Source of the DNA: Puffinus mauretanicus
Lineage: Eukaryota > Chordata > Aves > Procellariiformes > Procellariidae
NCBI GenBank assembly: GCA_023333565.1
Contig: JAJKFH010001094.1
Span: 930,001-994,000, forward strand
Length of the DNA stretch: 64,000 nt
Direction of reading: 5' to 3'
Shown: in pieces, positions 1,405 to 37,997 of the stretch
Position numbering within the stretch: position 1 is the first letter of the stretch
Layout of the letters: the number at the start of each line of letters is the position of its first letter
Made by a program: the position numbers and the translations under genes
The notes under the pieces: generated by a model
Databases searched by the model: none
What the model was told of the DNA's origin: nothing
What the model saw: only the letters and a program-made list of their open reading frames with translations

Positions 1405-1504
1405 TGTTAAGCACAGACAGTTTGCATTAGATAATAATGAGAAATCTACCATGTTCCTAGCAAAGAACTCATGCTTGACATCAGCAGTTATTCCAGTTGC
1501 AAAA
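1405..1504 (+). pseudogene. CATSPERB: CATSPERB relic exon (KNSC...AVIPVA)
   Basis: The acceptor ttcttgcag ends at 1404. The frame starting at gtt 1406 is open for 33 codons to a TAA at 1505-1507. The segment around LAKNSCLTSAVIPVA aligns loosely with the cysteine-containing stretch that precedes the GVYIG motif of mammalian CATSPERB. The next relic begins in a phase that needs one leftover base. That would place the donor at 1497, where TT stands instead of GT. The match is weak alone but the position is correct. Confidence 0.5.
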
Positions 1505-1927
1505 TAAATCTGAAGCCAATTGATGTTTTTATGTCAAAATGACTGATGTTGATAAATCTAGGTAAAAGAAATAAATCTGCATATTTGTTTGTAGAGGTTA
1601 AGCACAATAACAGCAACAACTAAGACACAGAAGTTTGAAATGAGCTTAATTTTTATTCCAGTGGTCTCAACCAGCCTTTACTTGTGTCTCAGATAGGCAA
1701 CAGTTCTATGAAAGTTACTGTACTGAAGCATTAGAACTCTCAGGATTTCCAGACATCATTCTGATTTATTCTTTTCATACTAATAGTGGTTTTATCTGAA
1801 TAGGGAAGTGCTGTATCTGTTCTGTGCAAGAAAATTTATTTCCTAAAGAGGTCTAACATAGAGGAGAGATTTTAAAAATAAATCTCTTTCATGTCAATGT
1901 CTTTTTTTTTCTTCTTCTTCTTTATAG

Positions 1928-2017
1928 GTGTCTATGTAGGTGTTAGCTACACTGGATTTGCATATAGAGAAACAAAATGGTTCAATATGACAAAAAACCT
2001 ATGTACCCAACTGGATG
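1928..2017 (+). pseudogene. CATSPERB: CATSPERB relic exon (GVYVGVSYTGF, KWFNMT)
   Basis: The acceptor tttatag ends at 1927. The open frame encodes VYVGVSYTGFAYRETKWFNM and continues to TQLD, matching the family's GVYIG and WFNMT segment. The exon ends with one base before a GTGGTA donor at 2018. Joined to the next relic at 3219, it restores an Asp codon, so the phase is conserved. No stop or indel is seen in it. Confidence 0.85.
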
Positions 2018-3218
2018 GTGGTAGATGTTGATTTTACGATGATTTAACCAGGCAAATATGGCAGGAAGATTATACCAGTCTAATAGGATTGCAGAGGAAA
2101 AAAAAATTTAAATAAATAAATATATAGCATTTATTTATTTATTTACTAATTTTAGAACATGTAGATCTTCTCTGCATGTGAAACAAAAGCAATAATACGT
2201 GAAATATAACCTGAGAGCAACTGTTCTAATTTTAACTGAATTTGTTTAATGATTATGAGGATTAAAAAAAAAAAAAAGGGGTGGGGGGTTGTACTGGTGG
2301 AACTAAAGGGTCAGCAGAAGAGCTGGAGTAAGTTGGGGGAAAAATTATCATGCATTATCAAAACAATATCTTTAATTTGCTATATCAAGTAGAGTTATGA
2401 ATATGAGTTCCTAGATGCTTCTTCTAAAGTTATTTTGGAAGTCTCCTTTAAGAATCAGGACTAAAAATCAGTACTTAAATGATTGTACCCAATGGTAACT
2501 AAATATTTGTATATTTTTATTGTCTGTGTTTATTTGGTCAGTAGTGGTTGTTTTATTTTGTTGACATTATTTGCATGATGGCATTTGGGTCACTGTATGA
2601 AGAATATTGTATTGTCTCTCTATATACCTGAAATTACAGATATTTTGATGATTCATTTCTGGTTGTGGAGAAATTTTACACTTACTACACAGTGTAATCT
2701 TGTTCTGTTTAGGGAGTGTCGATTTAGAGGACATATGCTTCCGATTCAGCTGCCAGGATGTTATTTAAAAACAGCGTTGGTGTGCATATAAAAGGAACTT
2801 CTTTGACATTGGATAGGAGAAGCAATTTAGTTCAGATGCTTAAAACCTGTAGTAAGCTGTATTTTTAGACATGGATCTTACCATTTTTGTGTCAATCATT
2901 TGTAAAGCACTACAGAGCAGCTGGTTGCAGGGACAGTCTGATCCTAAACCTGCCTAGCTGAGTGCATGGAGAAGTACCTCCCTGCAGGCAGCATGCCATC
3001 TCCCAGTACTGTATCATCCAGGGAGCATGCTTAGCTGTGCAGTTTCACGTGTAGGTCACTCTGCAGGTTGGTTGTCTGCATGAGCCTCCCCTCTAGTTTT
3101 GAGGGGAGCTCCTCGGTGTTTCTGCAAATACTCTAGGGTAGACTTTAGGAATGTCAAATGATGCATGAAGGGAACAAAGCAACAACTCTTCACAATGTTC
3201 ATTTTCTCCCTCCCCGAG

Positions 3219-3337
3219 ACTGTGATGACCTGTCGCTTGTGAATATCATCTTAACAAATCACTGTTTAATAGTCCTCACAACAATGGGTTTATTTCTCAG
3301 GGAAGACCTATGCCGTCCTACTGGAAAAATCGTAACA
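3219..3337 (+). pseudogene. CATSPERB: CATSPERB relic exon (DLSLVNIILTNH...GLFLREDL)
   Basis: It encodes DCDDLSLVNIILTNHCLIVL followed by TTMGLFLREDLCRPTGKIVT, one of the clearest family matches in the window. The acceptor is ctccctccccgag. The donor aca|gtaagt at 3338 is consensus. The frame is fully open and ends in phase 0. Upstream codons in the same frame are intronic. Confidence 0.93.
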
Positions 3338-5439
3338 GTAAGTATCAAGAAGTAGCTTTTTAACCCAATTTTACAAAATCCCAGCTAAATAGTAAGTAAC
3401 TATTTTCAGAGAGGTATTCTGGAAATATGACACTGTACATTTCCAGTTTTCTCTTTTCATTTTGTCAAAGATTACTTTTTGAAGCTCTCAGTAAAAGTTT
3501 CTAAAATTAAAGGCAGTGAATAAAGACAAGAAACCTAGCGTTCTTCTTTCAAAAAAGTACATAGTGTTGTCTAAAGAATAAATTTTATACATGAGTTTAC
3601 CGTATTATTGAAGTATTTTGAAAGTAGTATGACACTTCCAGCACTCATTTATTATTATTTTGTACCTCTTACAGAAGGAAAAATTAAATGTTGCACAGGA
3701 AATTAAGTACCTGTTTATTAATTTCAAGCTGCCCAAAGAGCCAAGTTTTCAATGGATTTTGTTGATCTGAGTGATTTGAAATCCAGTTAGCAAGGTTGAC
3801 TAGTTCTTTGTCATTTTGAAGATTTTTTTTTTTTTTTTCTGTTTGGTATATAATCAGCATCTTTTAATCAGCATTTTAGCATATATAAAATTCATTAAAG
3901 CAATGCAAAGGATTGGGCACTGCTGTAAATGCATGATTCCTGTATCTAATATGATGTTTAAACAATATTCTTCCTTGCATTTTTTTCCTGTTAATTGTAG
4001 ACATATGTTTCCTTTGAAATTGCAGGCATTTTCTTTCAAATTGGCCATCTCACCTAGTCATTTCCTTGACAGCTCATTCTATGCACAGAAGTGATCATTC
4101 TACGTACAGAACGGGCAATTACATTTGTAACTTAGGAAACGATGTGTTGCAAATCCTCATAGTGGGTATTTATGAGTACTAGTGATGTTAACTGAGGCAG
4201 AATTTGGAAACAGAGGTAATAAAGTCGCCTCAAGAAGGGCTTGTGGTCCCCAAAGCCTGTTTTCTTTAGCTGAATTATTTGGGCGAATAGAATATGTACT
4301 TTCCATTAAAATACCCTACTTGTGTTCCTAAACTATTACAGGCACAGTAACAGAGCTGCAACAACAAAATGAACACAGAGTTCTGGTACTGGTGTCCACT
4401 GTGCTTTGGTGCCTTTTTCACACCAAACTGTAGTTCTGCCTTCCACGCTGCCTGTGCCAGTGAAGGCAGTGGAGGACACAGGACGGTCTAGAAAAACACT
4501 ATCCGTGCAGCAAAGTGTATTGCATTTCTGAGCCAACATTGTCAGTGATTACATATTCTTCAGTGATTTTTAACTGTTGAAATTAAAGAAGTCTTTTCTA
4601 AGTGTATGAAAAGTTGTAATTTCAGAAAGTCTGGATTCTCATAGGCCTGCAAAAAGCCCATCCTTCATGCAAAGATAGTCTTTCTGCCAAATTTCAAGTC
4701 TTTATGGAAAACATGGTGCCACAAGAGCTTTTCCATAAGTCACTAAATTTATTTATTTGTTTATTTTACAGGAGTAGGACAAAACAATGTATTTTTTCCT
4801 GACCCTATCATTAGAGATGGATGAACTTTTAGCCATTATTTTCCAAATTTTGGAAATGTCAGCCTGAGATGGAAAGCTTGCAAGGAAAATTTCACTCCAA
4901 ATAGCTAGTTTGGCAAATTTATGAGCTGTTCTATGATTCTTACTAGAAGATTCTGTATTCAACTATCTTAACAACGAACAATGCTATTAAGCTTGTTTTT
5001 AATGCAACTTCCATGGTTGTGGCGGCATCCTTCTGGGATTAAAAGACTCCACGTGAAGTACCTGACTGACTCCAGTTTCTAAACTGGATATGTGCAAGTT
5101 TAGCAACACAAATCATGATTGTATGATGGACAGCTATGAGATGTTTACTCACAAAATTAAAACAATTAAATATTCTCAATAGCTATGTATTTGTGCACTG
5201 GAGGAGTAAGACCAATGTAAGGCCTCATTAAAGGATAACATTCTATTACGGTAGCCAATGCCTATGCCAATATTACTTTGTGGCCTGATGATAAAAGAAA
5301 CAAACAAACAAACAAAAAGATAGATAAAAGAACAAGAAAAACTGTAGAGACATCAACAAATCTCTTTTACTATCATTACAATTTGTGCTGTCTTTATTGT
5401 GTGCTATTTTTATCATTCTTAATTCCTTTCTTTCTCTAC
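3338..5439. other. pseudogene intron, nothing recognised
   Basis: AT-rich intronic sequence between two relic exons. It contains a T-rich run at about 3822-3840. The open frames on both strands at 3816-4094 and the minus frame at 4336-4539 show no homology I recognise. Confidence 0.4.
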
Positions 5440-5560
5440 TTCTCTAAAGTGAGGCTCCATGGCTTTGAAATGGTAAGAAACCTGGAATGTAATCTGTTTT
5501 CAGCCTTCATATTTTCAAAACTCTTTGCATGTGTGACTATTTGTTTGAAAGTATTTGAAC
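5440..5560 (+). pseudogene. CATSPERB: CATSPERB relic exon (FSK...GFEMV), acceptor apparently lost
   Basis: The frame beginning TTC at 5440 gives FSKVRLHGFEMVRNLECN, which lines up with the FSR...GFERV...ERC segment of mammalian CATSPERB. The previous exon ends in phase 0, so an exon starting exactly at 5440 fits. The two bases before it are AC (5438-5439) after a strong pyrimidine tract, suggesting a mutated AG. The 3' border is unclear. The V-T-I-C stretch near 5535 may be the counterpart of the V-T-V-T part. Confidence 0.5.
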
Positions 5561-5599
5561 TCTTTGGGACAAAACTGCTTAACATAGGGACATTTTAGG

Positions 5600-8298
5600 G
5601 TAAGCCAATATATTAGTAAAATGCAACTTCAGATTGTAACTCTGGAATTTAGTTGCAGCTACTTGAAATTTGCTGGAATGTTACCAGTGGATATTCTTGT
5701 AAGTATGCAAAGGGATGTTTTTAAACAGAATGAAAAAAGCTTCGATCTTCTGTATGATCAGAATAATTAGATCTCCAGCGGGTGGTATTGCTGCTGTTTG
5801 TTTATGTTCAGACATTTCACTTTCCTGACTAGGAGAATAATCCATGTGCTACTTTCTTGGAGGTCTTTCAGAGTACTCAGCAGATTCCATCTTTCTTAGC
5901 TTGATCTCAGTCAAGATTTAAGTGATCTAGCTATAACCAAATACAATGAATCATTCGTTTTGCCTGCCTATTATTGAAAATAAACTTGTGTTATTTATAG
6001 ATTTATTTTTATGTCAAAGGAGATACAATGACTTTACTTTTTATTTCTCATAGAATGCTTATTTCAGTGCAAGTATATGGTATGATCACCAGTGTCTAGC
6101 TAACAGAGAAATCTATGAAGGTAAAATATCAGATTTTAAATTTAAGAGGAAGAGAAAAAAATAATAAAAATCATAATAAAGTCCATTCAGAAGTTAATTT
6201 TTTTCAGCTTCTCAATCTCAAAATTGTTAAGGAATTCATATCCTACTAAACTTGCATAGAATTTGGGGACGAAACTCCCTAGTTCACGTGGACATCTCGA
6301 TTCTTAATTGCCAAGTATCTCTTTAATTTTAGAGCTACTTAATTTCTTAAATTTTATCCTGCTTCTAATGTTCTTCCACATCTCCTTGTATCTGGCGAAA
6401 GGAACAGAAACCTATGATTTTGACATGTCAGTACAGATAATGGAAAAACGGGATGGAAAGAATCCTGCGCTTTCTACCCGTGCTCCGCAAAGCCATACGG
6501 CACCTGGTGCTCCCGCGCTTACCTGTCCGGCCGCCCGTCGGTAAGCGCACCACCTCCTGCACAGGCAGCAGAAGGCACGCGCCGCTGCGGCCAGCGCTGC
6601 CGAGCGGCCGTTGAGGAGCTCCGCGTTTCTGAGATGAGGATTCTTGCTCGGCTAGTTCACGTAACATTCACGTGAAACAAAGTTACTCAGGTCTTGGGAC
6701 AAAATTAGCTTGTGCGCAAGTAAATATACATAGATGAGTATTTTAAAAGATACATTTGTGTCATCCATCTTTTACATGTATTGTGCACAAGCACATTCAA
6801 ATACCAGTGCTTACTTTCTGATTCTTAATATCGTTTTGCATAGTTGTTTGCATTCAAAACAGCTACTCTTGCAATACAGATTGAAAACAACATTTGAGAA
6901 CTCCAGATCACAAGTTCTTCTCAAAAGTGTCCATGAAGTCCACTGAGAGATCCCATATGCAGAGGTTGGCATGTCTATGTCCATGTAGTGTACAGCAAGT
7001 TGAAAGGCACTATCCTCATGCCAAAATTAGCCTTTGTGAATACACCACTGTTCCTTGTCTCATTAAAGAGGCGACTAGGAAAGGACTCAAATCATGACTA
7101 GTGCAGAAAAAGGTCTGGGGAATTTCTCAAAGTACGTATCTGAGTTTCTGTTTTCTTTCCCTATGTCCAAATACTAGACTAGATGGATCTTTTCTCCCTT
7201 TAAATAGCTGTTATTTTCTTATATACAGAAATGTACTTTTCATTTCTTTAAAACAGTTCTTATTCTTTCAATAAATTGAAGAACACACCATAGAGGTGCT
7301 AATGTTCCTTTTAAACTGCTCAGAAATATACTAGTAGGCACATCCTCTTTTGTATGCAGAGCAGAGACTGTATCATTAATATTTCTTTATGTATAAAATC
7401 ACTCAATTATACAAAATGATATAGACACTGTTCTGAAATTACTTAGCACATAATCTGCAATTTTTTTTTAAAAGAGATGGTAGATTAAAGTTTCATCTAT
7501 TCTAGAGGATGTTGTTAGTGTCACATTCAACAAAGATAAAACATGGAGCCAGGTAAGAAAATGGAAGATTTACATTGACTTCAACAATATGCTGCATAGT
7601 ACAAGTTTGCCTGATAGTTTAATAATTTTAAGGTTCCTTTTTTTTTTTACCATTTCTCTGCCTGCGTATTTTAAGCTTTAATATTACTAGTCCATAAATA
7701 CTGACATATTGTATCCCAGGATTAGAAATTTAAAACTGCTGTTTAAAAAATGCTTTCCAGATTATTTAATCAATAAATTCTAGTTCATACTGTATCCTAA
7801 TAATCTTACTGATTGGTACTGGTAACCTCTGGTCCTTTTAGGATCAGTGAGGCACCAGACAGTTGCAAGTAGGCTTTTGCGTGGACTTAGATGGAGATCC
7901 AGGGACCTTAATTTGGAATTCTTTATCAGAAGGAATTTGTTATACCTATAGGAAAGGCTGCTTAACTTTCACCTCCTAAGTTTTCCAGGTGAATGATACC
8001 AGATGAATGATTAAAGTTTGCCTTAGTTTCAAATGAATGCTAACTTCTATGCAAGTAACGTTCAGGACTTGAATAAATCTAAGTATTGCTGAAGAGTTTT
8101 GTAAGAAGGCATTCTACCTTGATACTTATATGCCTTTTATTTAAGTATGTGGCACTAAGGCAGTTTATGCTGAGGATCCGATTTTAACTTTAGCATACAG
8201 AAACAGAGGAAACTCAAATGAGCCCATTCGTAATGTCAACATGCAGAGTTTACTAACAATATACTTTCTTTCTCTTGGGTGTCGACCTGTTTTTATAG
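5600..8298. other. pseudogene intron with one CpG-rich patch
   Basis: Mostly AT-rich intron. The only distinct part is the CpG-rich patch at about 6440-6630, listed separately. No exon of the neighbouring gene was found in it. Confidence 0.4.
6440..6630. other. isolated CpG-rich patch with mirrored splice-donor-like sites
   Basis: About 190 bases rich in CpG inside strongly AT-rich sequence. It contains GCGCTTAC at 6515-6522 and its inverted copy GTAAGCGC at 6541-6548. Each reads as a good splice donor, on the minus and plus strand respectively. Both strands have short open frames through the patch. It may be a small orphan CpG island or an inserted fragment. No protein family was recognised. 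Confidence 0.4.
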
Positions 8299-8424
8299 TT
8301 ATGATCCCTTCACTAGTTGGGCAAGTTGCTTCCTGGAGGACTCAATAACACAAAGACATCTTCCAAAAGAGTAATAGCGTTTCTGATTGATTATGAGCAG
8401 AATACAGGAATAGGTATTTTTATG
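8299..8424 (+). pseudogene. CATSPERB: CATSPERB relic exon (YDPFTSWASC / VIAFLIDYEQNTG), 1-nt frameshift
   Basis: The acceptor gtttttatag ends at 8298. The first part, in the frame of TAT 8300, reads YDPFTSWASCFLE, matching the family's EPFLEWVPC. The second part, one frame over, reads VIAFLIDYEQNTGIGIFM, matching VLTFLVDQERGTGVYLF. The two halves join only if one base has been lost at about 8333-8345. The likely donor is GTGCAG at 8425, phase 0, which agrees with the next relic. Confidence 0.9.
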
Positions 8425-8919
8425 GTGCAGGCATGTTATAGAACCAGGGACAATTTCTCTGGCTTTGCATATATATATTATGTTTATAAATTAGATTAAA
8501 TTGATCGTTCTTACTTGTCATTCTAACATATTTGAACAAAGAAGGTTGCATGATGTTAGTGAGCAGTTTAGGCAAGACACTTCAACCCAGGAGATCTTGG
8601 TGCTGTTCTCAGCTTCTTCACTGTACAGGCAAATTGCTTTGTTTCTTTGTGTATCAGTTTTCCTATTTCTAAATTGGGGCAATTTACAAGAACTTAGAAG
8701 AATCTGTTCACTGTGTGAAATTCAGTCTGAGAAGATTGAGGAGAGGTTTGCAGGATGCAAATGCTTTTCTGGTTTATGTTGGACTTCTGCCTGATAGAGA
8801 ATTTCTCCTAAAAGACTCTCAATTTGAGATCTCTGCCAGCAATGCATTAAAAATTGTAAAATAGGAATTATGTATTTTTCTCTTTTATTTCTGTGCTATT
8901 TCCTCCTTCCCATACACAG

Positions 8920-9039
8920 GACCCAGTGGCAGTATCTTCTCATCAGCACAATTATTTTGATTTGAATGAATTTTTAGATTCAGCTGGAAACACAATCTGC
9001 TTCTCCAGATTTCCCACAGATTCAGCTACAACTCCTTTG
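8920..9039 (+). pseudogene. CATSPERB: CATSPERB relic exon (...FSRFPTDSATTPL)
   Basis: The acceptor catacacag ends at 8919. Forty open codons start with Asp and end FSRFPTDSATTPL, matching the FRFPSSFSSPV segment. The presumed donor at 9040 reads GTTTAG, a poor site, and the frame meets TAG at 9043 if it is not spliced. Phase 0 at both ends agrees with the flanking relics. Confidence 0.75.
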
Positions 9040-9465
9040 GTTTAGCTACGGCACCTTTCCCTTTTCTTAAAAACTTTTCATCTTCCAAACACAGAAAAAA
9101 TATTCTTTCTTGAATATTACAGGTGACCATGGAGTACTTGTATTTGACCAGTTAAAGGTCCAACACATTTGAAATCAGATATGTAATATTTACTGCTTTC
9201 CTTCTCCAACATATGCTTTCTACTGACTTTAAATTCATTCCCAGCTTAAGTTTACTTTTACTCTTTTTGTTTACTCTCACTTTTTTGGTGGTCTATATAA
9301 TAACTGCATAGCCATTATACTATTATCTCAGCTATTGATACTTCATGTATTATTTCTCTTCAGAAGAAGTCAATGGTTGCTGTTTACAATATAAGAGATC
9401 ACAAACTGTATCAGAACCCAAAATTTCCAGTGTTTGTATTTCCAAACACCAGATTTTTGCCACAT

Positions 9466-9517
9466 GGAATGTTTTTTTCACCCGCAGAGTCATTTCCTCT
9501 ATGTTTATGGAAATGAG
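9466..9517 (+). pseudogene. CATSPERB: CATSPERB relic exon (HPQSHFLYVYGNE), acceptor and frame damaged
   Basis: It encodes HPQSHFLYVYGNE, nearly the mammalian HPRSHFLYAYGNQ, followed by a consensus donor GTATGT at 9518. The GM codons at 9466-9471 are one base out of frame with it, because the T run at 9472-9478 appears one base too long. The expected acceptor AG at 9464-9465 reads AT after a pyrimidine-rich stretch. Confidence 0.85.
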
Positions 9518-9574
9518 GTATGTATGCGAAGAAAGTAATGTTGAATTTGAGTGTAACCTTTTTTTTTTTTTTAG

Positions 9575-9720
9575 GAAGTAAATGGTCCAAATCTGTTGTT
9601 AGAACTGTTCTGGCAAAGTTGTTGCTCATTTCAGTGGAATCCAGCTCAAAATTATTAGGTTCATGCATTTTTCAATTACTGGACTCACTTTTTTTGCAGG
9701 GTTGTACCATCTCTATCAGT
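9575..9720 (+). pseudogene. CATSPERB: CATSPERB relic exon (EVNGPN / VAHFSG...SITGLTFFAG), frameshifted
   Basis: The acceptor is a long T run ending in tttag at 9574. The phase-0 frame begins EVNGPN, like SVDGGN of the family. From about 9609 the matching frame is one base later and reads VAHFSGIQLKIIRFMH then FSITGLTFFAGLYHLY, aligned with IANFHDDIIKKTFHSF and YTSAITFVSQRGKVYS. The exact site of the shift and the 3' border are uncertain. Confidence 0.75.
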
Positions 9721-11640
9721 GGTCTCATTTAAATTGTGAAACTTTCTGAAATAATAGCTATTCAGCATCAGTACCATTGGCAGAAATTGATCTTTAGTGA
9801 AGAAATCCTTCAATTTAGGTTTTTGTAGAGACTGCTTAAGAAGTTATCTGTAAATAATTTTTTGTTATAGGGAAATCTTGAATCAACAGGAAGAGGTTTT
9901 TTATAAACAAGGTTCTGTGTTCTGTCAGTTTGGTCTATGCACAGTAGTTTACAACCAATTATTATTGCTTGTAAATAAAAGGCATTTTTACACTTGATGG
10001 AATAGACGTACTCTTTTCAGAAAATATTAATTAACTAATAAACAGTCTCTGTAGTGGCTCTGCCTCTAGGTATACATAGTAATTCAGCAGTGGCTATTTA
10101 TTTAACAGGTGTGGTTATCTAGTGATGGAGGCAATTCTTTTCAATTATGAATAAGTCTGGAAGATGAAAAAAATTATAAAAGCAAACGTGTGTACAGTCA
10201 TTCAGTCACATTCATGAGTGATAAGGGAAGCATTTTCTTCACTAAGGCAGGTGAGGAATTTCAACCTACTTTTGCAGTGAAGCAAGGCGTGACAACTATA
10301 TGAAAAGCTCCTGCATTAACCAATCTTCACACATACCTTGTTAATGCCATTTTACAGTAAACATGTTCTCTACAGGAATGTTAATACTTCCTGTTGATAA
10401 CTTTTCAGTAAACTGCCAAGTTAGAATACTTGAAAGAAAGTCAAGGTTTGTAGAAAGTAGTAGTACTGTGTTTTGTTAGTTGTGTAGTTGGCAGAATCAA
10501 GCTTTTAATCACACAATCCTTCACCTGCTTGAAGAGCAGCAGGCTTCAGGCAAAGTATTATACTGATACCAACATACAAAGACAAACAAGGAAAGTGTAG
10601 TATGTGATTGTGCTAAGCATGAGGAGTCATGCTCCTTACTTGCTGAGAGGCCATCAAAGGACATAGCAAACTAGTCGGTCATATACCATATATTCCTTGT
10701 TCATCTGCTGCAGAATGCAGATGGCTGCAATGAAATAGCTCCTGTATTGTCACTATATGGATTGAATCTGAACAGGCAGACTGCCCTTTCTCCTTTTCCA
10801 TTTGTTGTAGTGTGCTATGTATAGCAAACTAGGATAAAATTGGCTTATATAGATATCAGGAAAGTATAGATTTAATTATGTGTCTTCTAATTAATCTCTT
10901 CACTTGGGGAAAAAAAAAAAAATTTACTCCATGTAAGAAGAGAACTCTTTAGAAGTCACTTTCTATGACATAACAGTGATTCACCAGTCCAAGAGCTGCT
11001 GATTTTAGTTGAATGTTTTTGTACTATACTTTGCCATGAAGGAGAAGAAAATGTGACATTATTTTTGTGTAGTGACAGTCCTGTGAGAATCCAAATCCAA
11101 TTTGCTCACTGCTCCACTAATATACAAATAAACCTACCAAGTTAAATGTATATACATAAATTTCACTGGAGGAGGTGTGTAGTGATGCTTCAGTAAGAAG
11201 TAAATTGTGTGTGAAAGATTATGGAAATCAATGGGAATTTTGCCATTGTTTTTGCCATGCTTTGATTTGAGCCCTAGGTTTTCCAGTCCTATAAAGAACA
11301 ATACGGACATGAAGCCCTTTGTTCTTGTAGAACCTCCTTGAATTTATTAGACATAAGTATCCGTCCCAAATGACCAGTGCAGGATGATGCACATGGTATC
11401 TTTTGAGGTATCTTAGGAAAAAACATTCTGTTTTGTTCACTTCTCGATTTGCTCTAAAGAGGTTATTTTCTTCCCCTTACTAATTTACTGTGAAAGTGTT
11501 TCTTTGGGTGTATGTCAAAAAAAGAGATCTGACTGAAGTACTGAACCTCACTGCTACTCCTGTAGCTTAAGCAGCATGACTTTTGTCTTCTCATGTGCAT
11601 TATCTGCTTCTAATTTATTGACTGTATTTCTTCTTTGTAG
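9721..11640. other. pseudogene intron, nothing recognised
   Basis: AT-rich intron between two relic exons. No repeat family, RNA gene or coding segment was recognised in it. Confidence 0.4.
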
Positions 11641-11792
11641 GTTTGGAAACATATGCCAGGTCTGAGACTCTAACAGCAAATGTTGTCAGTTTGTACTATG
11701 ACCATTTGGGAGTTTTGCATCTAATTACTTTGAATAAGTCAAAGTCTGATAGGCTGGAAATAAGGAAGCTAGATGTTTTAACATCAGTGGAG
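11641..11792 (+). pseudogene. CATSPERB: CATSPERB relic exon (LYYDHLGVLHLITL)
   Basis: The acceptor ttctttgtag ends at 11640. The frame reads LETYARSETLTANVVS followed by LYYDHLGVLHLITL, an excellent match to the LYYDHLGFLHKLTL region. It stays open to the putative donor GTCAGC at 11793, phase 0, which agrees with the next relic. No lesion is visible inside the exon. Confidence 0.92.
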
Positions 11793-12299
11793 GTCAGCTG
11801 TCAAAAAAAACTTAAATAACTGTTGCAAAATATCCTTTAAATCTTCAAGGAACAGTTTGTCGCTGTGCGCAACTTCAAGAAGATTTGGTTTGTGCAAGAA
11901 ATTGAATCAAAAATATCCCTATTGTATGGAGAAATGCCAGGCATATATACAGCTGTATGTACATTTTAAATGTATGAGACGGACTGTGTGACAACTGTTC
12001 TGCATTCAGAGTAATATTCAGAGAATAGATAACTATGAATTCTGTAGTACCAGTCTCCATTCTACCACAAAAAGAGTGAACTGACCTCTGTGTTTAGAGC
12101 CCCTCTACAGCTCCCTCCAAACTGAGCATGCTCCAGAAGGCCTTTTAATCCAGCTCGTGTGGCCAGGCTATACTTCTCTGATGCAGAGGGCTTTGAGAAT
12201 TCACTTCACCCTTCGAACACAGGTGGGTCCCTAGTGCTGCTGCATAGGCAGACATTATATGAAAAATATATGTATATGAAAAATTACATTTCTGATTTG

Positions 12300-12540
12300 C
12301 AACTTTTCACTTATCCACATTGAATCTCACCTGCCCTTTTATAATCAGTCACATAATACCACAACATCCCTCTGCAACTCTACGCAGTCAGACACTATCT
12401 GTACTACACTTAGAATCATTAGTGACATTCACCACCGTGTCTTTCATTCTTTCCAATTCAGTTTTGAATAAACTGAACACAAATATGCTGAATGCAAAGA
12501 CTGTGGGACTCTGCAAGTTACCTCCCTCCCGTGAGATACG
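12300..12540. repeat. possible ancient interspersed repeat fragment
   Basis: The run from about 12310 (TTATCCACATTGAATCTCAC, then CCCTCTGCAACTCTACGCAG) resembles a widespread old sauropsid repeat that I recall. It reads antisense to such elements. Divergence is high and I cannot name the family. A repeat-masking run would settle it. Confidence 0.35.
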
Positions 12541-13081
12541 GTGCTACTAACTGTACTGGCATAGCTAAGTCCTCTTTGCATACTTTGTGCCTGACTGTTA
12601 GTGTTCTGCTGATAATGGCATAATCAGAATAATATACCTGCTGAATCAATTTAAGTAGTACCAACCATCATCCAATAATATAATCCTTGTACCATTTACT
12701 ATCCATTTTTGCTGACACTTTAAATGATCAGTAAGGAAATGGTCTAAAGGAATACCTTGGTTGCTATTTAGAGATTTTTGACAGCAATCACACAATTCAG
12801 CTAGTCCTTTGCTATAAAAAGGAAATACTTATAGTATTATAGATTCTACCATTTGAGATCAAATAAATGTAACTTTTAAAAGGATAGTTATTCTATGGAC
12901 AAGATGTCCATTACAAGATGAGGAAACAGCCACTTTTACAGAAGCTAATAATTTTCATTATTTCCACTTGACAATAGTTTTTTTGATTGGATTATGTGGC
13001 ATCAAAAGAAGTTTATACATTATAATACTAGAAATGGAGAATAAATAAGATAACCGTGGTTTTTTTTTTCTGACCTTTTAG

Positions 13082-13178
13082 GAAACAAACAGATTCTTTT
13101 ACTGTGTATTGTGCCCACAATATATCACTGAGCAGCAAATAATATTTTGTGAGCATAATTCAACCAGAAGGAAAGGCG
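13082..13178 (+). pseudogene. CATSPERB: CATSPERB relic exon (VLCPQYITEQQIIF)
   Basis: The acceptor follows a T-rich tract, gaccttttag, ending at 13081. The open frame contains YCVLCPQYITEQQIIFCEH, aligned with the ALAPQHTSLDEIIFFAY segment of the family. A GT at 13179 is the likely donor. The frame stays open well past it. Confidence 0.8.
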
Positions 13179-13714
13179 GTATCAAGAGCTCAAAAATTCA
13201 TACCCTCAATAAAGGTCAAGTGATACAGTATCAGTAAGATGCTGACAATAATATATCAAGACTTAATATGCTAGTATTTAATACTTCCAAATGGTAACTA
13301 ACAAAAGGGCATTGGCAAAATACTTCATAGTTTCTATTTTTACTTTTTTTTATATGCTGTTTTAGAAGCAATAAATAAATAATAACATGTTCTAACAAAT
13401 GTGAAATCTCATAATTTGGTTGTGGAAGTATGGTTGAATATGGCATTCTCTGTCAATTATTACTTTTTCAGCTTTTCAAAAACAGATCCACTACTAGTAA
13501 TTCTGATTCATGCAAAACTTTGCCAAAGCCCTGTGAATTCTCAGAGAATGTTAAAAAACATTGTCAGGTAGTTAACAGCAAAGATTAGAAATATTACCTC
13601 CTTTGCCGCGTTCTTGGTTGCTGGAGTGCAACAGCAGCAAATAAACTGGTTAAAATAGCAGTCATTTGAGCGAGTCGCAGTTAGTAGTTCTTGGAAAACT
13701 ACTAAGTGGAATAG

Positions 13715-13755
13715 ATCTGTGGGAATATTGTTTTATGTAGGACTGATGAATCTGG
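13715..13755 (+). pseudogene. CATSPERB: CATSPERB relic exon, short (CGNIVLCRTDESG)
   Basis: The frame ICGNIVLCRTDESG matches KFGNIHYGKVIHSG of the family, directly before the part encoded by the next relic (GPVGAAL versus GKTGRAY). The acceptor would be gtggaatag at 13714. The donor is unclear: phase predicts a cut after 13755, where the bases are TC, with a GT one base earlier. Confidence 0.5.
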
Positions 13756-14828
13756 TCCCTGAAATACAATGTTGTGGGGTTTGTAGAATCTGTGCTTATT
13801 ACTTGCTGTCTTCCTATGTGATAACGTGTGTTGAATCAGCAGTTTCCTGGTGCAATACACTTCAGCAGACTGTCATTGAGATCACCAGGGGTGGACCAAG
13901 ACTTATTTTCAGCTGATCCATTAGTGTTTGTAGTTATATCAGCATTTACATTTTGTAAATGAATATAAAGCGCATTCAAGTGATTCTGTACTTCTCAGCA
14001 ACAGGCTCTTGAAGTATTTGGTTTCTTTCAGAGAGAGAGAAAAACAGGGGGAAAACTGCTTCTGTTTTTCTAAAACAACTGAAAAGACTCAAGGTGTTAG
14101 AAGTCACCTCCTCAAACTATGGAGCTTACCTCATATACGAATAATGGAAAACATGGAGCTCTGAATAACCCTCTGTTGAAAGTACTTAGCAGTTCTTCTT
14201 CTTACATGGTTTATGGGGCATTTTATTCAGCCCCCAACTGTCTTTTTGCCACTCAGTCTGAGAGGACAGATCCTTGTATTAATTCTTCAAGGATTGCGAG
14301 GGTAGATTTCTTGTTAAAGGAGGCTAAAGTCTATGGTTCACTATTCTGATGTCTCTAAAGAAGAATCCTCTTCAGACCAACAGTACCAATTATTTCCTTG
14401 TATTTGCATGCACAGTTAATAGTACAAAATGGGCTGTCTGCACTGATGATTGACACCTCTGCTTTGACGGGAACAAGTTCTGAGAGCAGGGGCACAGCCT
14501 ATTTCCACAAACTATTGAGTCTGCCTTTAGCTCAGTATTGATGCCATCAGTATCACAATTTCTAGTTCCGAAGATTCATAGATTCCTTAGTCACCTACAT
14601 GATTCATACAGAAGTCTGGAACAGTCAGGAGATCCTTTCCTGGATGAGCTCAGGAACTAACAGATGCCATATACCTTAAAGTTAGAGACAGTGTCTTACT
14701 TTTTGAGTATTTATGCAACTTAGTGTAAGCAAAACACTTCTGTTATCAGTCCTAAAGACGTCTCTTCTTATTACTACCTTATCAGAAGTTTTCAGAAACA
14801 CCCGATGAGAAACAGAAGTTACATAGCA

Positions 14829-14918
14829 TCAGTGAGTATGGTAGATTATTAGCAGCAACGGTACCTGAGAAAATCTCTTGTGTTACCACCACTTCTAATA
14901 ATCTACCATACCCACTGA
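14829..14918. repeat. fold-back sequence, 24-bp near-perfect stem
   Basis: Bases 14829-14852 and 14895-14918 are inverted copies with a single mismatch (gagtatgg versus gggtatgg). They are separated by 42 bases whose own ends pair partly (ggta/tacc). It lies in a pseudogene intron and is not part of a recognised element. Confidence 0.8.
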
Positions 14919-16217
14919 CAAAATCAGTTTGACAGGTATTGTAAGAGATGTCAGTCAATCCCGAGAGATTCGTATCCTTAGCTACCCCTTCCTAGGAAAT
15001 CATTTGAATTACTCTCAGAAGCTGCATAATAGTACAATTTCCAATACATGGACACTCTACAGTTTCCACCTATCTTGCATATCTACTTTTCTCATCCTTG
15101 TTTACTAACTATGTATTTCTCTTCCACAAAAGTTCACAAACATGGGCCTGTCTGAAGTGATTCTTCAAGTGTGTCCACTGTTAAGCTGATCTATTTTATC
15201 TTTCTCTCTAGCTGTATCAGTTGTTAGCCACATTCCAAATGTTTATAGGTAGGTGGAGGTGGGAAGAAGCATGGAGGGGAGATAGGGCATTCATTCCCAT
15301 ACTGCATTTAATGTAATCATTGATTCATGTGTAAATCAACAGAGTAAAAACTTTGTGGTCTCTCATCATTACTTCTCCACCATATTCTGTCTTCCATAAA
15401 GTTTATGTATGCACCACAACCTAACCTACTTTGTAACATTCTAAAAATTTGGGGTTTTTTAAGAATTCTGATTTCTGAGGAAATGGTTGCTCTGTACATT
15501 TCAGATGTCATTGTATAGAAATTTCTTAAATTCTTCACTGCCTTTACTGAGCTGTGTAAGGACCAGGCCATTTCAGCTCAAGTATGTGCCACCTTACATG
15601 AATGTGTGCTCCAAGACAGCTCTTTCAGAGGTTACAAGGCAGATTACTGTGCATTTTAGCAAAGAAAAAGCAACTTCTGCTGCTTTTTATGAGTACTCCC
15701 GTAAGAAAGAGAGATTATAGAAACTGTATTCTCTGTGTATGTGCATGTATGTATCATATCTATGTATATAGACAGAGAGACTATAAGACTACAAGTAATT
15801 TTAGTGTGGTTACTTAGTTTGAATTTGATAAAGCTGTGTTTCACTCACTGAACAACTCAGCGCCTTCTGGCAATAAATCTACCAATACCTGCAGAATACA
15901 TATGGACAAGGCTATGTGAACTCTGTTTACTAGAAGGAAGGTAAGTAACTGCTCTTTGTCTTTTTCAGCAGGCAGGCAAAGGGCATACAATTAAAGAATC
16001 TAAGCCTGTCCTGCCAGTTGGTAGCATTATGAGGACCTGCTTTCAAATATCGTTTCACCTGTGCAGGTCACCTGGCATCCACATCTGGTATTTGCCAGTT
16101 TGCTTTGACTTTGGAGAGTTTTTCTTTAGAATTTGTAAAAATAGTGTGCAATACACATGATTTCTACTTAGGGAATTATCCAACACAATAAGAAAATTAT
16201 ACTTCTTGTCATTACAG

Positions 16218-23495: not shown

Positions 23496-24097
23496 GCCAA
23501 CGGCATCCTGGCCTGTATCAGAAATAGTGTGGCCAGCAGGAGCAGGGAGGTGATCGTGCCCCTGTACTCGGCACTGGTGAGGCCGCACCTCGAATCCTCT
23601 GTTCAGTTTTGGGCCCCTCACTACAAGAAGGACATTGAGGTGCTGGAGCGTGTCCAGAGAAGGGCAACGAAGCTGGTGAAGGGCCTGGAGCACAAGTCTT
23701 ATGAGGAGCGGCTGAGGGAACTGGGGTTGTTTAGTCTGGAGAAGAGGAGGCTGAGGGGAGACCTCATCGCGCTCTACAACTACCTGAAAGGAGGTTGTGG
23801 CGAGGTGGGTGTTGGTCTCTTCTCCCAAGTAACAAGCGATAGGACGAGAGGACATGGCCTCAAGTTGCGCCAAGGGAGGTTTAGATTGGACATTAGGAGA
23901 AATTTCTTTACTGGAAGAGTGGTCAGGCCTTGGAACAGGCTGCCCAGGGAAGTGGTTGAGTCACCATCCCTGGAAGTATTTAAAAGACGTGTAGATGTGG
24001 TGCGTAGGGACACGGTTTAGTGGGCATGGTGGTGTTGGGTTGACGGTTGGGCTTGATGATCTTAGAGGTCTTTTCCAACCTTAATGATTCTATGATT
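23496..24097 (+). mobile_element. CR1 LINE 3' fragment
   Basis: A 5'-truncated CR1, from the [10 protein letters not shown] segment through [19 protein letters not shown] and [19 protein letters not shown] to a 3' tail with TGATTCTATGATT. It is the same subfamily as the copy at 17838 and covers the same last 600 or so bases in the same orientation. Its open frame of about 170 codons is the ORF2 C-terminus, not a host gene. Confidence 0.95.
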
Positions 24098-26041
24098 TAA
24101 TTGGGCTATACATATGACCCTCTGTTTTCATCAAAGAAAAATGGCTTTTGACAATTTTCGAATGAAAACCATATAAAGACAGTTAAAGTAAAGCCAAATC
24201 ATTTCTTTTTTAAAGTATTTATTAATTTTCTATTGCATGTGGACATAGTTACTGCCCCTGACTCACATATACAACTTCTTAAATAGTTGGTCCTTAGCAG
24301 ATCATTGAATAAGTCAAATTAATAGAATAGAAGAAAAGAGAACGTAAGTAACAGAGATCAGTGCTTAAATAGAATCTTAATCTAACAAAATAATGTGTGT
24401 GGTTTGACAATTATTTTAATTGTGTGAAAAATACCGTGGATTTTGGTGAGATTTGTCTTGTAAAGGAAGCTATTTCTACTGGTGAAAGTTTGCATGGTAA
24501 AGTTGTTTAGGAGGAGATTATTGTAATCGCTAAGATAAACATCTCTCACTCAGACTTGAGAAGGGTAATTCTGCAGTAACTGGTCTTGACTAGTTGAAGT
24601 CGGAGTTTACCCTGACTGGCCATTTGTTGAAAATATAAGCATATGGTAGTGTTATTAGTGGTGTTCAAATCACCAAGGAAAATAGCATCTAGATAAGAAC
24701 TCAACATTCTAAATCAGGAGGACAAAACACTTCCAAGACACATTTCCTAAAGATTACAGCATTTATGAATGCAGGGCCCTTCAGGAAATTAGAGACATTT
24801 ATGCTCTTAGATCCCCAAGGCACATTTGAAAATCCCAACGCTCACCTGTACAGAGGAGACAAAGTCCTATCCTGTGCATCTGATATGATGTGAGCTACAC
24901 CTAACGTATCTGGGGAGGCAGGAAGGAATTCAAGGTATTCTTGACGCCGCAGTACTTTATGCTTTGCTGAGCAAGCACCCTGCTGATATCGGAGAGTAAT
25001 ACCAGCTGATCGTGCTGGGAGTAGGTCACCTATCAAGATGCCTACATAGTTCCGTAAGGAAATTCTTTCATGGAAAAAGTACGCACAACCTTCAGGAATG
25101 CTAAAATCTTGATAGTCAATTTATTAGTTTCAGGCCCAGACAGTTTCAGTGGTACCTGTCTGCCTCTTAAAGGAAAAACAAGCAACTGTGCTGCTGCCAG
25201 CGATGCTTGCGTACACTGCAAATGTACTGAGAATCTTGCTCTGATTGCTGTGGCCTGAATTGTTCCCTCCCATAGCAACCAAATGAGTCCGTCCTCGACA
25301 TGTACGCCCTTCATTCTGGGTTCTCACTCACTGCACAATGACTTTGCAGCTTAATAGTTGAACTCTGGTCTCTGATCTTAAGACTATTGTTATTAGTCAC
25401 TGGAGTAAGAAATCAAAACCAGTTCCAGCCATCAGCCAGGAACTTAGGACTCTCTCTTCCCCCTGCAGTGCTATCAGGTTGAACCATCGTGCTCCCCCAT
25501 GCATGCTGTATTTCTGGCTTCATTTCCCCGTGTACACGGCTAACAGCAAGTATTTCAGCAACAGGAAGGATGGAGACAGCAACGTGCTCACCCAGCTTTA
25601 TAAGCTAACAGTCAGGATTCTCTCTTGAGAAAAGGGTTTGGACTCAGGCTGTGGAGGAAGTGGAACATAGGGCTCACCACTTTCTGGGTGAGCGCTCCGA
25701 CTAGTGGAGTGTACTGCCAACGATCAGCATGCCTAGCGACAGCTGGTCTTGGAAAACTAAAGTAGCTACACATATGTTTTAAAACTGAAGAGGGGCACTT
25801 AAGATTCCTTTTAACCTGACTCAATGTGCCAACCCCACAGATCTCCTCAGGAAATTGCTGTGCCACTCCACTTATATTTGGATCCCTATTAACTTATGTG
25901 AGAGCTGAGTGGTTACTTGTATAGGCCAGAGCAGCCTGGTAATGCTCTGAAGGAGTGTTGAAAGAACACAATGATGAAGGCAATGGTCACAAAAGGCAAC
26001 ACAGGAAATTCCATTTAAACAGAAGAAAAAACTATTTTACT
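24098..26041. other. pseudogene intron, nothing recognised
   Basis: Intronic sequence after the second CR1. Overlapping open frames on both strands at about 25040-25330 have no recognisable domain. No exon of the host relic is expected here from the phase chain. Confidence 0.4.
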
Positions 26042-26854: not shown

Positions 26855-26993
26855 CCTATCCAATGTTTCAAGTGCAATTAATAAACCTTGTCGTTGGCAA
26901 TCCATCACTACTGGAAGTGAATGCAAAAGAGGACTGGGATGAAATGGATAGTTACACATTGGAATTCTCTGTTTGCAGCAAACATTACAAGCC
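26855..26993 (+). pseudogene. CATSPERB: CATSPERB relic exon (VGNPSLLEVNA), donor lost
   Basis: The acceptor caatttcacag ends at 26854. It joins the previous relic's last G in phase to give AYPMFQVQLINLVVGNPSLL, continuing EVNAKEDWDEMDSYTLEFS, an unmistakable match to IPLLTVFVGNPNLLEVTAEV and DDTDSYVITIS. The expected donor at 26994 reads ATAAGG instead of GTAAGG. Read-through gives TAA at 26995. Confidence 0.95.
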
Positions 26994-27041
26994 ATAAGGG
27001 AAGACAATTCATTCTGAGCAATAGCTGTGCTTCCACCGTTC

Positions 27042-27092
27042 TTTTATTCTGAATAGTTATTCAAATACAGCATTATTTTATTCTGAATAGTT
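27042..27092. repeat. 17-bp direct repeat
   Basis: TTTTATTCTGAATAGTT occurs at 27042-27058 and 27076-27092, separated by 17 bases. No element boundary was recognised around it. Confidence 0.85.
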
Positions 27093-29152: not shown

Positions 29153-29886
29153 TGTGACAGACACTTTTTCTTTGACTGTGTTCAGTGTCATGCTGAGGCA
29201 ACATCAGTTGAGCAATATGAGAAGTTCAGTATAAAAATAACATCCTTTTCAAGGTATTCTTTCCATTTGTATCTATCTACCACCCCTCTCTACTGTGGCA
29301 GGCATTGCCAGTAGCTAAAAATATACAAGCCCATAAATAACATCAGCGCCAATCATGTGTGGCAGTGATCTGCTTGTACCATACTTGTCCACGTCATTTC
29401 TATTACCAGTTTTACCAATTCATAATTGGCAACTGCTTCCCCCAAGTACTCTGGTAAAAGTATGGCATTGCCACATACACCAATAACTAACAAAATCAGG
29501 CTTTGTTACATTAAAAGTAGAACTATGAATTCTTCAGTCAAAGACACCTTGCTAAGCACGTTCTGCTATGAGGCCATTCCGAACAAAAAGAGGGGATCAA
29601 TTAAATGGTCTTCTGATCATTACCATAGGAGCATTACAAAGGGAGAAAGCCAGTTTTGAAATGAGTGGCTCCAAGATAAACGAATTCAAACCAGTCCCTT
29701 TGTACCCTTGCGCTAGGTTAGTAGGCAGGAGGAGCAAACTTCACAATGCAGATATATCTGCCAGTGCAAACATGGTATATTTACTACATTCTTTTAAATG
29801 GCTATCTTTGTTTTGGGAGTACTAATCTATTTTCACAACATAACTACCTATAGGGTAAATACACAATGCTTCTGGGATAATCACAG

Positions 29887-30050
29887 CTTTGTGTATTTGT
29901 GATATGGTAGCATATATTATAACACTGAAGAGTGGCAGCGTATGTGGGAAATCAATTCATTACATTTCTCCAGTTCCAATGACTGCTGATCTGTGGCTAC
30001 GGAAAGATCCAAAAGATGAAAATGGTTTTCCACTCCTAAAAGAACTGCCG
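29887..30050 (+). pseudogene. CATSPERB: CATSPERB relic exon (IITLKSGSV...KSIHYI...LLKELP)
   Basis: The acceptor aatcacag ends at 29886 and the consensus donor GTAAGA starts at 30051. The frame is open throughout: MVAYIITLKSGSVCGKSIHY, then ISPVPMTADLWLRKD and FPLLKELP match MVPTLKSSCSYLRSMHHI, PFEDWI and LIKTLP of the family. About ten residues expected just before it were not found, and phase with the previous relic does not fit. Part of the 5' side may therefore be lost or the acceptor moved. Confidence 0.9.
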
Positions 30051-31261: not shown

Positions 31262-31352
31262 GTAAACTACAGACCTTCTGAACAGAGAACAGGTATTCCA
31301 TAGTGCAGATCCCAGCAAACTAAGAATAAGAAATTATCCTAAGGATTCAAAA
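31262..31352 (+). pseudogene. CATSPERB: CATSPERB relic exon (VNYRP / FHSADPSK), internal deletion
   Basis: The acceptor tatatgcag ends at 31261 and the consensus donor GTAAGT starts at 31353. It begins VNYRPSEQRTGI, matching INYRPPSNMGIA. After about 31292 the matching frame changes and reads FHSADPSKLRIRNYPKDSK, like NFYHADPSKPIPRNMFHMSK. About six to seven codons are missing and the frame is lost. The unshifted frame stops at TAG 31301. Confidence 0.93.
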
Positions 31353-33156: not shown

Positions 33157-33267
33157 ACTCCTGAATTGTATAAAAAGTGTGCTAACAGGTCATCTTGAGC
33201 TGAATGCAACTGTACCTTGGCTGAGAAAATGTCTTTACTTTCAGCTTTCTCAGACTGTACAGCGAAG
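33157..33267 (+). pseudogene. CATSPERB: CATSPERB relic exon (YKKCANRSS*AECNCT), in-frame stop
   Basis: The acceptor cctttccacag and donor GTAAGA are intact, and the 111-base exon is phase 0 at both ends. It reads TPELYKKCANRSS, then TGA at 33196-33198, then AECNCTLAEKMSLLSAFSDC, matching FKQCANVST, EECNCT and VAFSDC. The cysteines of the family pattern are conserved. The stop aligns with an Arg position of the mammalian protein. Confidence 0.95.
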
Positions 33268-33498: not shown

Positions 33499-33637
33499 GT
33501 TCTAAGAATGAAGTATCCAGTTACAATGCTTCCAATCTGTTTCCAGCTTAAGCATTTTAGGTCCATTAGAAATCTGTCATTTCCTCATTCTGTCACCGTT
33601 ACTGAAGTCAACCGAAGGACAGACTGAGGAGTCAAAG
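33499..33637 (+). pseudogene. CATSPERB: CATSPERB relic exon (SVTVTEVNRRTD*), Trp-to-stop
   Basis: The acceptor aaatttcag and donor GTAAGG are intact. It encodes VLRMKYPVTMLPICFQ and SFPHSVTVTEVNRRTD, then TGA at 33625-33627, then GVK. The family has RFKFPITQYPVSLEI and LVTVTEVNMRHNWKLK, so the stop replaces the conserved Trp. Phase into the next relic is kept (one leftover G). Confidence 0.95.
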
Positions 33638-35596: not shown

Positions 35597-35697
35597 GTAT
35601 CAATGAAGCACCAGGAATGTTAAAAATAAAAGACTATTCAGGAAAAATACTCCAGACTACCACATACAATCCAGAGTCTATGTTCTTAAACTTATCT
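35597..35697 (+). pseudogene. CATSPERB: CATSPERB relic exon (TTTYNPESMFLNLS)
   Basis: The acceptor tttacag and consensus donor GTAAGT at 35698 are intact. Thirty-three open codons read APGMLKIKDYSGKILQ and TTTYNPESMFLNLS, matching RMKQLVEPILGAAVYNPSGLNLS. The first two bases complete a Gly codon with the previous relic. No lesion is seen. Confidence 0.94.
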
Positions 35698-36681
35698 GTA
35701 AGTTTTATAATTTCAAACTAAAATAAATATTATGACCAGAAATAGGTATAAACCACAGTTCCAAAACTAAACACAATTTACCTTTGAGGCAGTTTCGATA
35801 TGAATTGAAATATCTTTTCAGCAACAGATTTATGATTTGGGCCCATATCTAGATGGGATAAATTGGGGTTTATATTTTATGCATCATGTAATATTTTAAG
35901 GGGGAGTCCCAGAGACAATGAAGGAAACTTTCAATGAGTCTTTTGTGTCTGAATCTTTGGAATAAGTTGCTTTAGATATCTTGTTAAAAATCCTGTCTTT
36001 TTTAATTAACCAGTTTATTCTATACACTGTCACCTAGATTTTTTGCCTTAGAAATATGACTTATTAATCTGCATGATTATATTGACATACAGATTTTAGA
36101 AGAATAAGTTTGCCTTATTTGAATGAATTGAATGATACTAGTTGATTTCGAACCCCCTAAACGCCTCTATGGAAGCTGTCTTCTCCTAATGCACTGTCTT
36201 ATGGGAATTATAGTCTGGGCCCCATATCACCCATTTAGAGCTGGGCTGTGATGATGAAATACATCTCCTGCAGCGGAATATGGCCCTGCTGCCCAAACTA
36301 GGAAACTGCACATTTATTTCGATCTGACTCATACAGAAACCTTTCTTATCGATCAAGAAGAAACAAAATATGTAAAGAAAACAGTGACCCAGCTTTCAGT
36401 CTGCTTGATAACAGACCTTTTGTGAGCACCAGAATGCAAAAAATACGCACCACTAGACAAAATTGCTACTCAGCTGAAGGTCCTTATTTAAATCTTGCTT
36501 GATTGCTTTTAAGAGCAGCATAGGTATCTTCCTTCCTAGCCTTATTTTTGCTCAATTTTATATTAAAAATTCAGCAATTCTTATGGAACTGGTTGAAAAT
36601 GGTGTCAAATGTTTCTGCTTAGCAAAGCAGTTTGTGCGAAACAAGGAATCCATCAATGACGATGATGATTTCTTTTAAAAG

Positions 36682-36757
36682 GAATCTGGGCTTTTCCATT
36701 TCAAAGTATCAACTATTCCTGGACTTTCCCATTGTTCACCTGTCCGATGAATTTCAG
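36682..36757 (+). pseudogene. CATSPERB: CATSPERB relic exon (ESGLFHFKVSTIPG / HLSDEFQ), +1 shift
   Basis: It reads ESGLFHFKVSTIPGLSHC, matching GSELFHFRVTVISGVTFC. With one extra base (about T36736) skipped, it continues HLSDEFQ, matching NLIEEFQ, up to a GTACCA donor at 36758. Without that shift the frame runs to TGA at 36748. The acceptor ttttaaaag is weak. Confidence 0.92.
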
Positions 36758-37889
36758 GTACCATAAGTAGACTGTAATTTATGTCATTTATATCACTATA
36801 TGTCATTCTGTCACTATAATTGAGTGTTATTTAAAAATAACAATCATACCATTTCATATGAAAAACAAATGTGTTACATCAAAAGCTTCACTTGTGCAAG
36901 TCCAACCTCAACTCTTTTGTTGAACAGTGTCCTGATCACATATTTGGCCAGAATCGTTTTCCCTCAAATATTGTGTTATAGTTTTCTAAACATGGTAAGC
37001 TGAATCCATTTTGCTCAAATTCAAACTCCATCTAGACTGCACCTGCCAGTTACAGAGAGATCTGGAAGCCTTGCAGTCGGGTCTCGTCCCTGGGGCCTGT
37101 CATGGCTCTTGACCTACCTACTCTTCGCGCGCATCTCTAACGGGAGACAATCAGCACAAGGATTGCACATTAACTGCCACTCAGTCTCCAGCCCTCTGCC
37201 TACCTCAGAGAAGTTTCCAGCAAAAGGTACTGCTCGCCTGTGACCCTTATGACCCCACAGAGGTTCACACGCAGAGAGCCTTCATCAGTATATATTATTT
37301 GTTAAGGTGATGTTTATTGATAGAACACAGCCAGAAAGTGCTTTTAAAAGGTCGTTATCATTATCTTTGGTTTTCAGTTGGAAAATGATAACACACAAAG
37401 ATCCATACTGGGGCTTGGGGCTTCATGATTCCATGTTTTATAAAAAAATAGATGTAGATACAGCCCTTAGCCCAAAACACCTGTAGTCAAAGAAAACACA
37501 AAAAAGGTAGAATAAGGAACTGATTAAATGTATATAATTCTAGCTCAGCTTTTTATTTACAAAATACCATGTTGCCATAACACAATTGATACCTACTATA
37601 TAAAAACGTCTTTTTTGATATTCCATCACTGAAATTGCTTTCCTGTGGTGACCATCCACCTTCCACCTTGCAACCTAGTGATTTTGTTCTGAAATGCTGA
37701 AGCAGGACAAAATTTCTGCTGAGCTCCCAGATTGTTTGCAAATAAAAGAAGATGACCATACCCTTCTACCTCTGCGCTGGGAACAATTTAGGTTTTGTAT
37801 TAGAAATTATAAATTCAATGCATTAAAACTTTGATACAGAATTTTAGTAATAATTGAATAACAGATATTTTAAATGTTTTCTGTTTCAG

Positions 37890-37997
37890 ATTTGTGTTGA
37901 TGATGCTGTGACCTTTTCTGAAAAACATTTTATTTGGATATTAGCAATTGTATTATTAGTGGGCATTATCTTTGCAGTATCTCCGAGACAGAATTAG
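37890..37997 (+). pseudogene. CATSPERB: CATSPERB relic terminal exon with C-terminal membrane segment
   Basis: The acceptor tctgtttcag ends at 37889. The frame opens ICVDDAVTFSEK (family IYVDEAPLPF), followed by the hydrophobic segment HFIWILAIVLLVGIIFAVS, the single C-terminal transmembrane helix. It then gives PRQN and TAG at 37995. Mammalian proteins carry a cytoplasmic tail of several tens of residues after this helix. Here it is cut short, either by loss or because a last exon is unrecognised. An AATAAA at 38403-38408 could be an old polyadenylation signal. Confidence 0.92.

Follow-up and report, generated by a model that had tools for sequence, protein, structure and literature searches.

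A decayed CATSPERB gene beside PPP4R3A in bird DNA and the timing of its loss

INTRODUCTION

When, and how many times, did birds lose the CatSper channel? CatSper is essential for mouse sperm (PMC6660944), and it has been reported missing from most birds, the timing and manner of the avian loss being unsettled. Here we approach the question through the remains of CATSPERB, the gene of the beta subunit, in a stretch of DNA of 64,000 nucleotides (the window). The relic occupies positions 1928–38103 of the + strand as 20 collinear exons. The best explanation, to which we give a probability of roughly 0.6, is that it is a CATSPERB pseudogene, most likely unitary, still in its ancestral place upstream of PPP4R3A and left in a neognath bird by a late, separate loss.

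Relics of this kind are already known. In chicken, the interval from SMEK1 to TC2N on chromosome 5 contains 66 residues of CatSper-beta, from which degeneration was proposed (Cai and Clapham, 2008, PMC2572835), and in zebra finch there are CATSPERB fragments, one of them tabulated with coordinates that span 112 bases, with the same pattern in chicken (PMC6679542). CatSper genes have been described as conserved in two birds only, both palaeognaths (PMC6660944), whereas a contrary count has only CatSper1 absent in birds, the beta subunit not being treated in the excerpt (PMC11289002). The chicken fragment and the present relic belong to the same gene in the same interval and both are degenerate, but against the 66 residues of chicken and the 112 bases of zebra finch the relic keeps 20 exons, although part of this gap may be due to method. 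What is new is how complete the relic is and that it can be roughly dated: searches of the openly licensed literature found neither a bird CATSPERB relic of 20 exons nor a late date. Such completeness allows a site-by-site comparison of lesions among neognaths, which makes one loss versus many a testable matter.

RESULTS AND DISCUSSION

Identification of the relic

We built a palaeognath-weighted profile of 1133 columns from an alignment of 17 CATSPERB proteins and matched it to bases 1–42000, permitting introns and frameshifts. The resulting path had 22 pieces, of which the first two (350–373 and 1645–1788) fitted poorly and were discarded as noise ahead of all counts. The remaining 20 exons cover profile positions 210–1131 (81%) with a summed length of 2702 bases, and the alignment scored 2380, compared to 266 for the reversed sequence. 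The consensus, itself palaeognath-weighted, was matched at 602 of the 894 aligned residues. The 19 introns have 38 splice sites, 34 of which still show GT or AG.

The domain content told the same story. A Pfam scan of the three forward frames of about 1–42998 recovered CATSPERB_2nd, CATSPERB_head, CATSPERB_Ig-like and CATSPERB_C (PF21548, PF22830, PF22831 and PF15149) in this order on the + strand, all over the curated cut-off of 27 bits each. The first domain was found in four stretches (E 7e-22, 78.4 bits); the head was split in three pieces at about 13.1, 16.2 and 22.7 kilobases, two of them with 78.2 and 28.1 bits and the first (20.7 bits) under the cut-off; the Ig-like domain was at 26.8 kilobases (49.1 bits) and the C domain at 33.2 kilobases (64.3 bits). 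Two solved CATSPERB chains matched one forward frame of 2–14998 (E 6e-5). With the Nothoprocta CATSPERB, tblastn gave 23 high-scoring segment pairs at E<=1, 19 of them below 1e-3 and 22 on the + strand, and each of 11 CATSPERB proteins gave 11–19 below 1e-3 on the window; on the reversed window the same 11 queries gave 12 matches at E<=1 and none below 1e-3. Finally, the read-through protein of the relic retrieved 67 proteins at E<=0.001, every one with CATSPERB Pfam domains, the best being those of palaeognath birds and turtles, followed by alligator, squamates and mammals. At the level of sequence, the homology of the relic to CATSPERB and the order of its exons can be regarded as established.

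An earlier note, made from the letters of this DNA, had already named CATSPERB and suggested a protein-to-genome alignment as the check, and both the ordered domains and the spliced alignment, with similarity found in order, bear the identification out. It had also counted 21 exons, compared to 20 here (a comparison via end coordinates only), and had spoken of a nearly complete gene; the 20 ordered exons amount to 81% of the profile, and positions 1–209 are at background. In bases 1–1927 these positions score no better than chance (41 of 60 background segments equal or better), and PF21541, the N-terminal part listed for most full-length CATSPERB matches, had no match in the frames scanned. 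A first exon at 1405 is not supported, as the stretch 1380–1600 scores 20.3 against profile 1–209, a value reached by 55 of 60 length-matched random segments drawn from 39000–43000 and 47500–61500. The end at 37997 has to be moved, the last exon extending to about 38103. The N-terminal fifth of the gene may lie upstream of the window.

Loss of function

Four stops in frame (10148, 33196, 33625 and 37995) and seven frameshifts (near 8330, 9472, 22902, 29875, 31301, 36739 and 38019) interrupt the relic, leaving no open reading frame able to encode CATSPERB, and four of the 38 splice sites are lost. Because the head, Ig-like and membrane exons lie behind frameshifts and a stop, no complete channel subunit is possible now, and judging from its bases the gene looks dead. 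The frameshifts at 9472 and 22902 sit in homopolymer runs and may reflect errors of assembly. A 220-residue query from three exons of the relic was used to look for small predicted proteins, and none of 219 candidates of similar size matched at E<=0.001, in keeping with the earlier remark that such a relic escapes annotation.

Relaxed constraint is apparent at the columns that are invariant in the 13 other CATSPERBs. The relic is changed at 37 of 211 (17.5%), compared to 8 of 211 in Nothoprocta and 4 of 179 in Tinamus, and when each of nine other orthologues was left out in turn the change at invariant columns was 0–6.5%. Excluding horse, the figures for relic, Nothoprocta and Tinamus become 55/284, 20/284 and 6/228, and excluding horse and squamates 69/337, 28/337 and 16/283. 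The changes are unevenly spread: three neighbouring exons within 8279–10250 have none in 41 invariant columns, versus 32 of 160 in the remaining exons. They nonetheless bear two frameshifts, one stop and two splice losses, and the pattern, picked out post hoc, may be due to chance.

Phylogenetic placement and locus

Maximum-likelihood analysis of 15 proteins placed the relic within the bird clade (100/100), as the bird origin proposed earlier would have it, with the six palaeognaths together as its sister group (97/97) and on a long branch that was flagged by the tree program. Being sister to the palaeognath CATSPERBs, it most probably derives from a neognath host. In palaeognaths the gene is annotated (emu, ostrich, kiwi, rhea and tinamous), so that the loss which the earlier note gave as reported for birds does not extend to all of them. 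Palaeognath CATSPERBs are 62–70% identical to the relic over its columns and have the same domain order, but the relic, unlike them, has stops, frameshifts, lost splice sites and altered invariant residues. Several annotated palaeognath CATSPERBs are themselves without stretches at common places, for example profile 292–329 in emu, kiwi, tinamou and rhea, and the ostrich protein has unrelated letters near there; either decay has set in for some of these copies as well or their annotation is at fault.

Downstream of the relic, the first coding exon of PPP4R3A, which we take to be the same gene as SMEK1, is open at 46739–46879 on the + strand, encodes residues 1–47 and matches the solved phosphatase 4 regulatory subunit 3A chain 6r8i_A (E 1e-25). 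CATSPERB adjoins SMEK1 in human and chicken (PMC2572835). The locus would suit a unitary pseudogene in that the decayed copy keeps its introns and has PPP4R3A downstream, the TC2N side being beyond the window. That the relic is in place, as the earlier note held, is borne out by this PPP4R3A exon; its view of gradual decay and not deletion is upheld as to decay in place, while the absence of large deletions applies to profile 210–1131 only.

Dating the loss

The end of constraint was estimated with two clocks. For the first, the neutral decay of mock genes was simulated at six divergences, the products were realigned with an aligner of the same design and Poisson means were fitted (57 of 60 runs usable); the mock genes had short introns, proportional exon cuts, a start identity set so that the final value came close to that of the relic, and no CpG effect. 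All lesions together (four stops, seven frameshifts and four splice losses) gave a neutral divergence, K, of 0.05 per site (95% support 0.03–0.085), and stops and splice sites, without frameshifts, gave 0.045 (0.02–0.10). The second clock, which uses the 37 changes in 211 invariant columns, gave a K of 0.07 (0.043–0.101).

These values can be compared to the fitted length of the relic branch, 0.361; from the same node the tinamous sum to about 0.30–0.32 and the ratites to about 0.14–0.18. A wholly neutral branch of 0.361 predicts change at about 30% of the invariant columns versus the 17.5% observed (p=1.6e-5). Assuming a ratio of nonsynonymous to synonymous substitution rates (dN/dS) of 0.4, the neutral share of the branch was 0.24 (0.12–0.39), the value between human and mouse for CatSper-beta being 0.409 (PMC2572835), and at the functional rate of tinamous it was 0.34 (0.14–0.55). 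Both clocks, rough as they are, agree, and by them constraint would have ceased roughly one quarter of the branch before the present. In absolute terms, a rate of 0.0004 has been put about fivefold under the avian genome average (PMC5473641), from which we derived about 0.002 per site per million years; a K of 0.05 then amounts to about 25 million years and one of 0.07 to about 35 million years, and half the rate doubles both.

From this single locus, and with borrowed parameters, we infer that the gene died considerably later than the base of Neognathae. Purifying selection would have maintained it over much more than half of the interval from the neognath–palaeognath split to the present, with unconstrained decay at the ancestral locus thereafter. 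Rather than going back to one loss at the base of Neognathae, the loss in the lineage of the relic probably happened independently and at a later time. A wider claim, to which we give about even odds, is that there was no single loss of CATSPERB in the neognath ancestor and that, in the lineage of the relic, the gene remained selected for tens of millions of years past the neognath radiation and died separately, which would make CatSper loss a repeated event in birds, some neognaths possibly having kept, or still keeping, a working beta subunit.

Alternative explanations

The alternative that survives best, although we consider it less likely than a late loss, is a single death before crown Neognathae, about 100 million years ago as for STK33, combined with slow mutation in the lineage of the relic. 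Several observations lean this way and weigh against a late loss. No neognath CATSPERB protein was named among the 67 matches, nor among the best 120 of 211 in a wider search (limited to the 7992 candidates with the highest word overlap, and with one name per cluster), the birds named in both being palaeognaths, and this absence is the pattern expected from one early loss. Only fragments have been reported for chicken and zebra finch (PMC2572835, PMC6679542); among birds CATSPERB was found in a ratite only, and a loss in modern neognaths was suggested (PMC4290089). STK33 provides a precedent, kept in palaeognaths and lost in neognaths about 100 million years ago (PMC4509753), and a slow host is conceivable, since penguins and petrels have the lowest rates among 17 bird orders compared (PMC9296559).

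The clocks have weak points too. Stops alone permit a K of up to 0.15, and of the 211 invariant columns 14 are in the last exon, where the alignment is weakest and which accounts for 8 of the 37 changes (leaving this exon out brings the second clock to 0.054, 0.028–0.080). At the functional rate of ratites the neutral share becomes negative, -0.21 (-0.57 to 0.18), and therefore there is no fine clock. Besides, the dating comes from one locus and protein data only; its indel ratio, 0.08, is an assumption, its dN/dS is that of mammals and CpG effects are left aside.

Against an early death, by a dating that is indirect and uses assumed rates, the combined lesions fit a K of 0.03–0.085, while 100 million years at the assumed rate of about 0.002 would give about 0.2, and at a K of 0.16 the log-likelihood drops by 8.2 with the three lesion types and by 4.5 without frameshifts. 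The invariant-column test, which is free of any absolute rate, rejects a wholly neutral branch. The comparison with STK33 is also instructive: as with CATSPERB, the gene is present in palaeognaths and neognaths have remnant exons with indels and stops, and its remnants carry kilobase-scale exon deletions, with the loss of exon 3 common to all 28 neognaths examined (PMC4509753). The CATSPERB relic, unlike STK33, keeps 20 consecutive exons and looks younger.

Far less probable is a duplicated or retroposed copy that decayed here while a working CATSPERB persists elsewhere in the genome. A retrocopy is ruled out by the retained introns and most of the splice sites, and the position beside PPP4R3A is that of the published synteny (PMC2572835). 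Least credible of all is a functional CATSPERB with lesions due to assembly errors, as homopolymer miscounts might account for two of the seven frameshifts (9472 and 22902) but do not explain four stops, four altered splice sites or a change at invariant residues of 17.5%, versus at most 6.5% in the nine orthologues.

Exon map

Along the + strand, the relic opens with two exons that are lesion-free as seen, 1928–2020 (profile 210–240, 20/31 residues identical, tblastn E 1e-7) and 3219–3337 (241–280, 30/40, E 9e-12). The smallest exon, 5440–5472 (281–291, 6/11), has an aligned edge without an AG acceptor; it is weak by itself and owes its placement mainly to collinearity. Two more lesion-free exons follow, 6054–6120 (292–313, 14/22, E 3e-7 for 5991–6155) and 7506–7552 (314–329, 10/16, E 0.005). 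The next three are damaged: 8279–8430 (330–380, 35/50) by the frameshift near 8330 and a changed donor and acceptor, 9364–9517 (381–431, 36/50) by the frameshift near 9472 within a T run, and 10109–10250 (432–479, 35/47) by the stop at 10148. Then comes 11641–11792 (480–530, 31/51, E 5e-16), again lesion-free as seen.

The head domain starts in 13082–13233 (531–581, 22/50; Pfam head 1–53, the piece under the cut-off) and continues in the open exon 16218–16411 (582–657, 49/65; head 40–107) and in 22702–23029 (658–766, 82/108; head 109–173, E 7e-22), which has the frameshift near 22902 within an A run. The Ig-like domain (E 8e-13) is found in 26855–26994 (767–813, 35/47), whose donor is gone. 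Frameshifts affect 29854–30050 (814–879, 43/64, tblastn E 2e-20) near 29875 and 31262–31352 (880–916, 21/30) near 31301, the latter with a deletion in addition.

Stops are present in 33157–33267 (917–953, 28/37, Pfam CATSPERB_C) at 33196 and in 33499–33637 (954–999, 32/46, E 2e-11) at 33625. Exon 35597–35697 (1000–1033, 19/34, E 9e-5) is lesion-free as seen, and 36682–36757 (1034–1058, 19/24) has the frameshift near 36739. The exon aligned to the membrane segment and tail, 37890–38103 (1059–1131, 35/71, E 2e-5 with an emu protein), contains the stop at 37995 and the frameshift near 38019.

Neighborhood of the relic

Directly upstream of PPP4R3A exon 1, the region 44900–46880 is G+C-rich with a short GGGCA tandem repeat, as read by eye, and is probably the promoter island of this gene. 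Further downstream, no additional Pfam domains were detected in two of the three forward frames of 49000–63998, and no non-coding RNA family reached its gathering threshold. Two of the introns of the relic contain reverse-transcriptase pieces of long interspersed nuclear elements (LINEs), presumably CR1-like, at 17821–19030 and 23496–24100. They are 92.7% identical over about 607 bases, and the first keeps an open stretch of 175 residues with a reverse-transcriptase match. These insertions would be young, with a divergence about that of the decay of the relic itself. A third LINE fragment at 53086–53265 is older and is 74% identical to the piece at 23496–24100.

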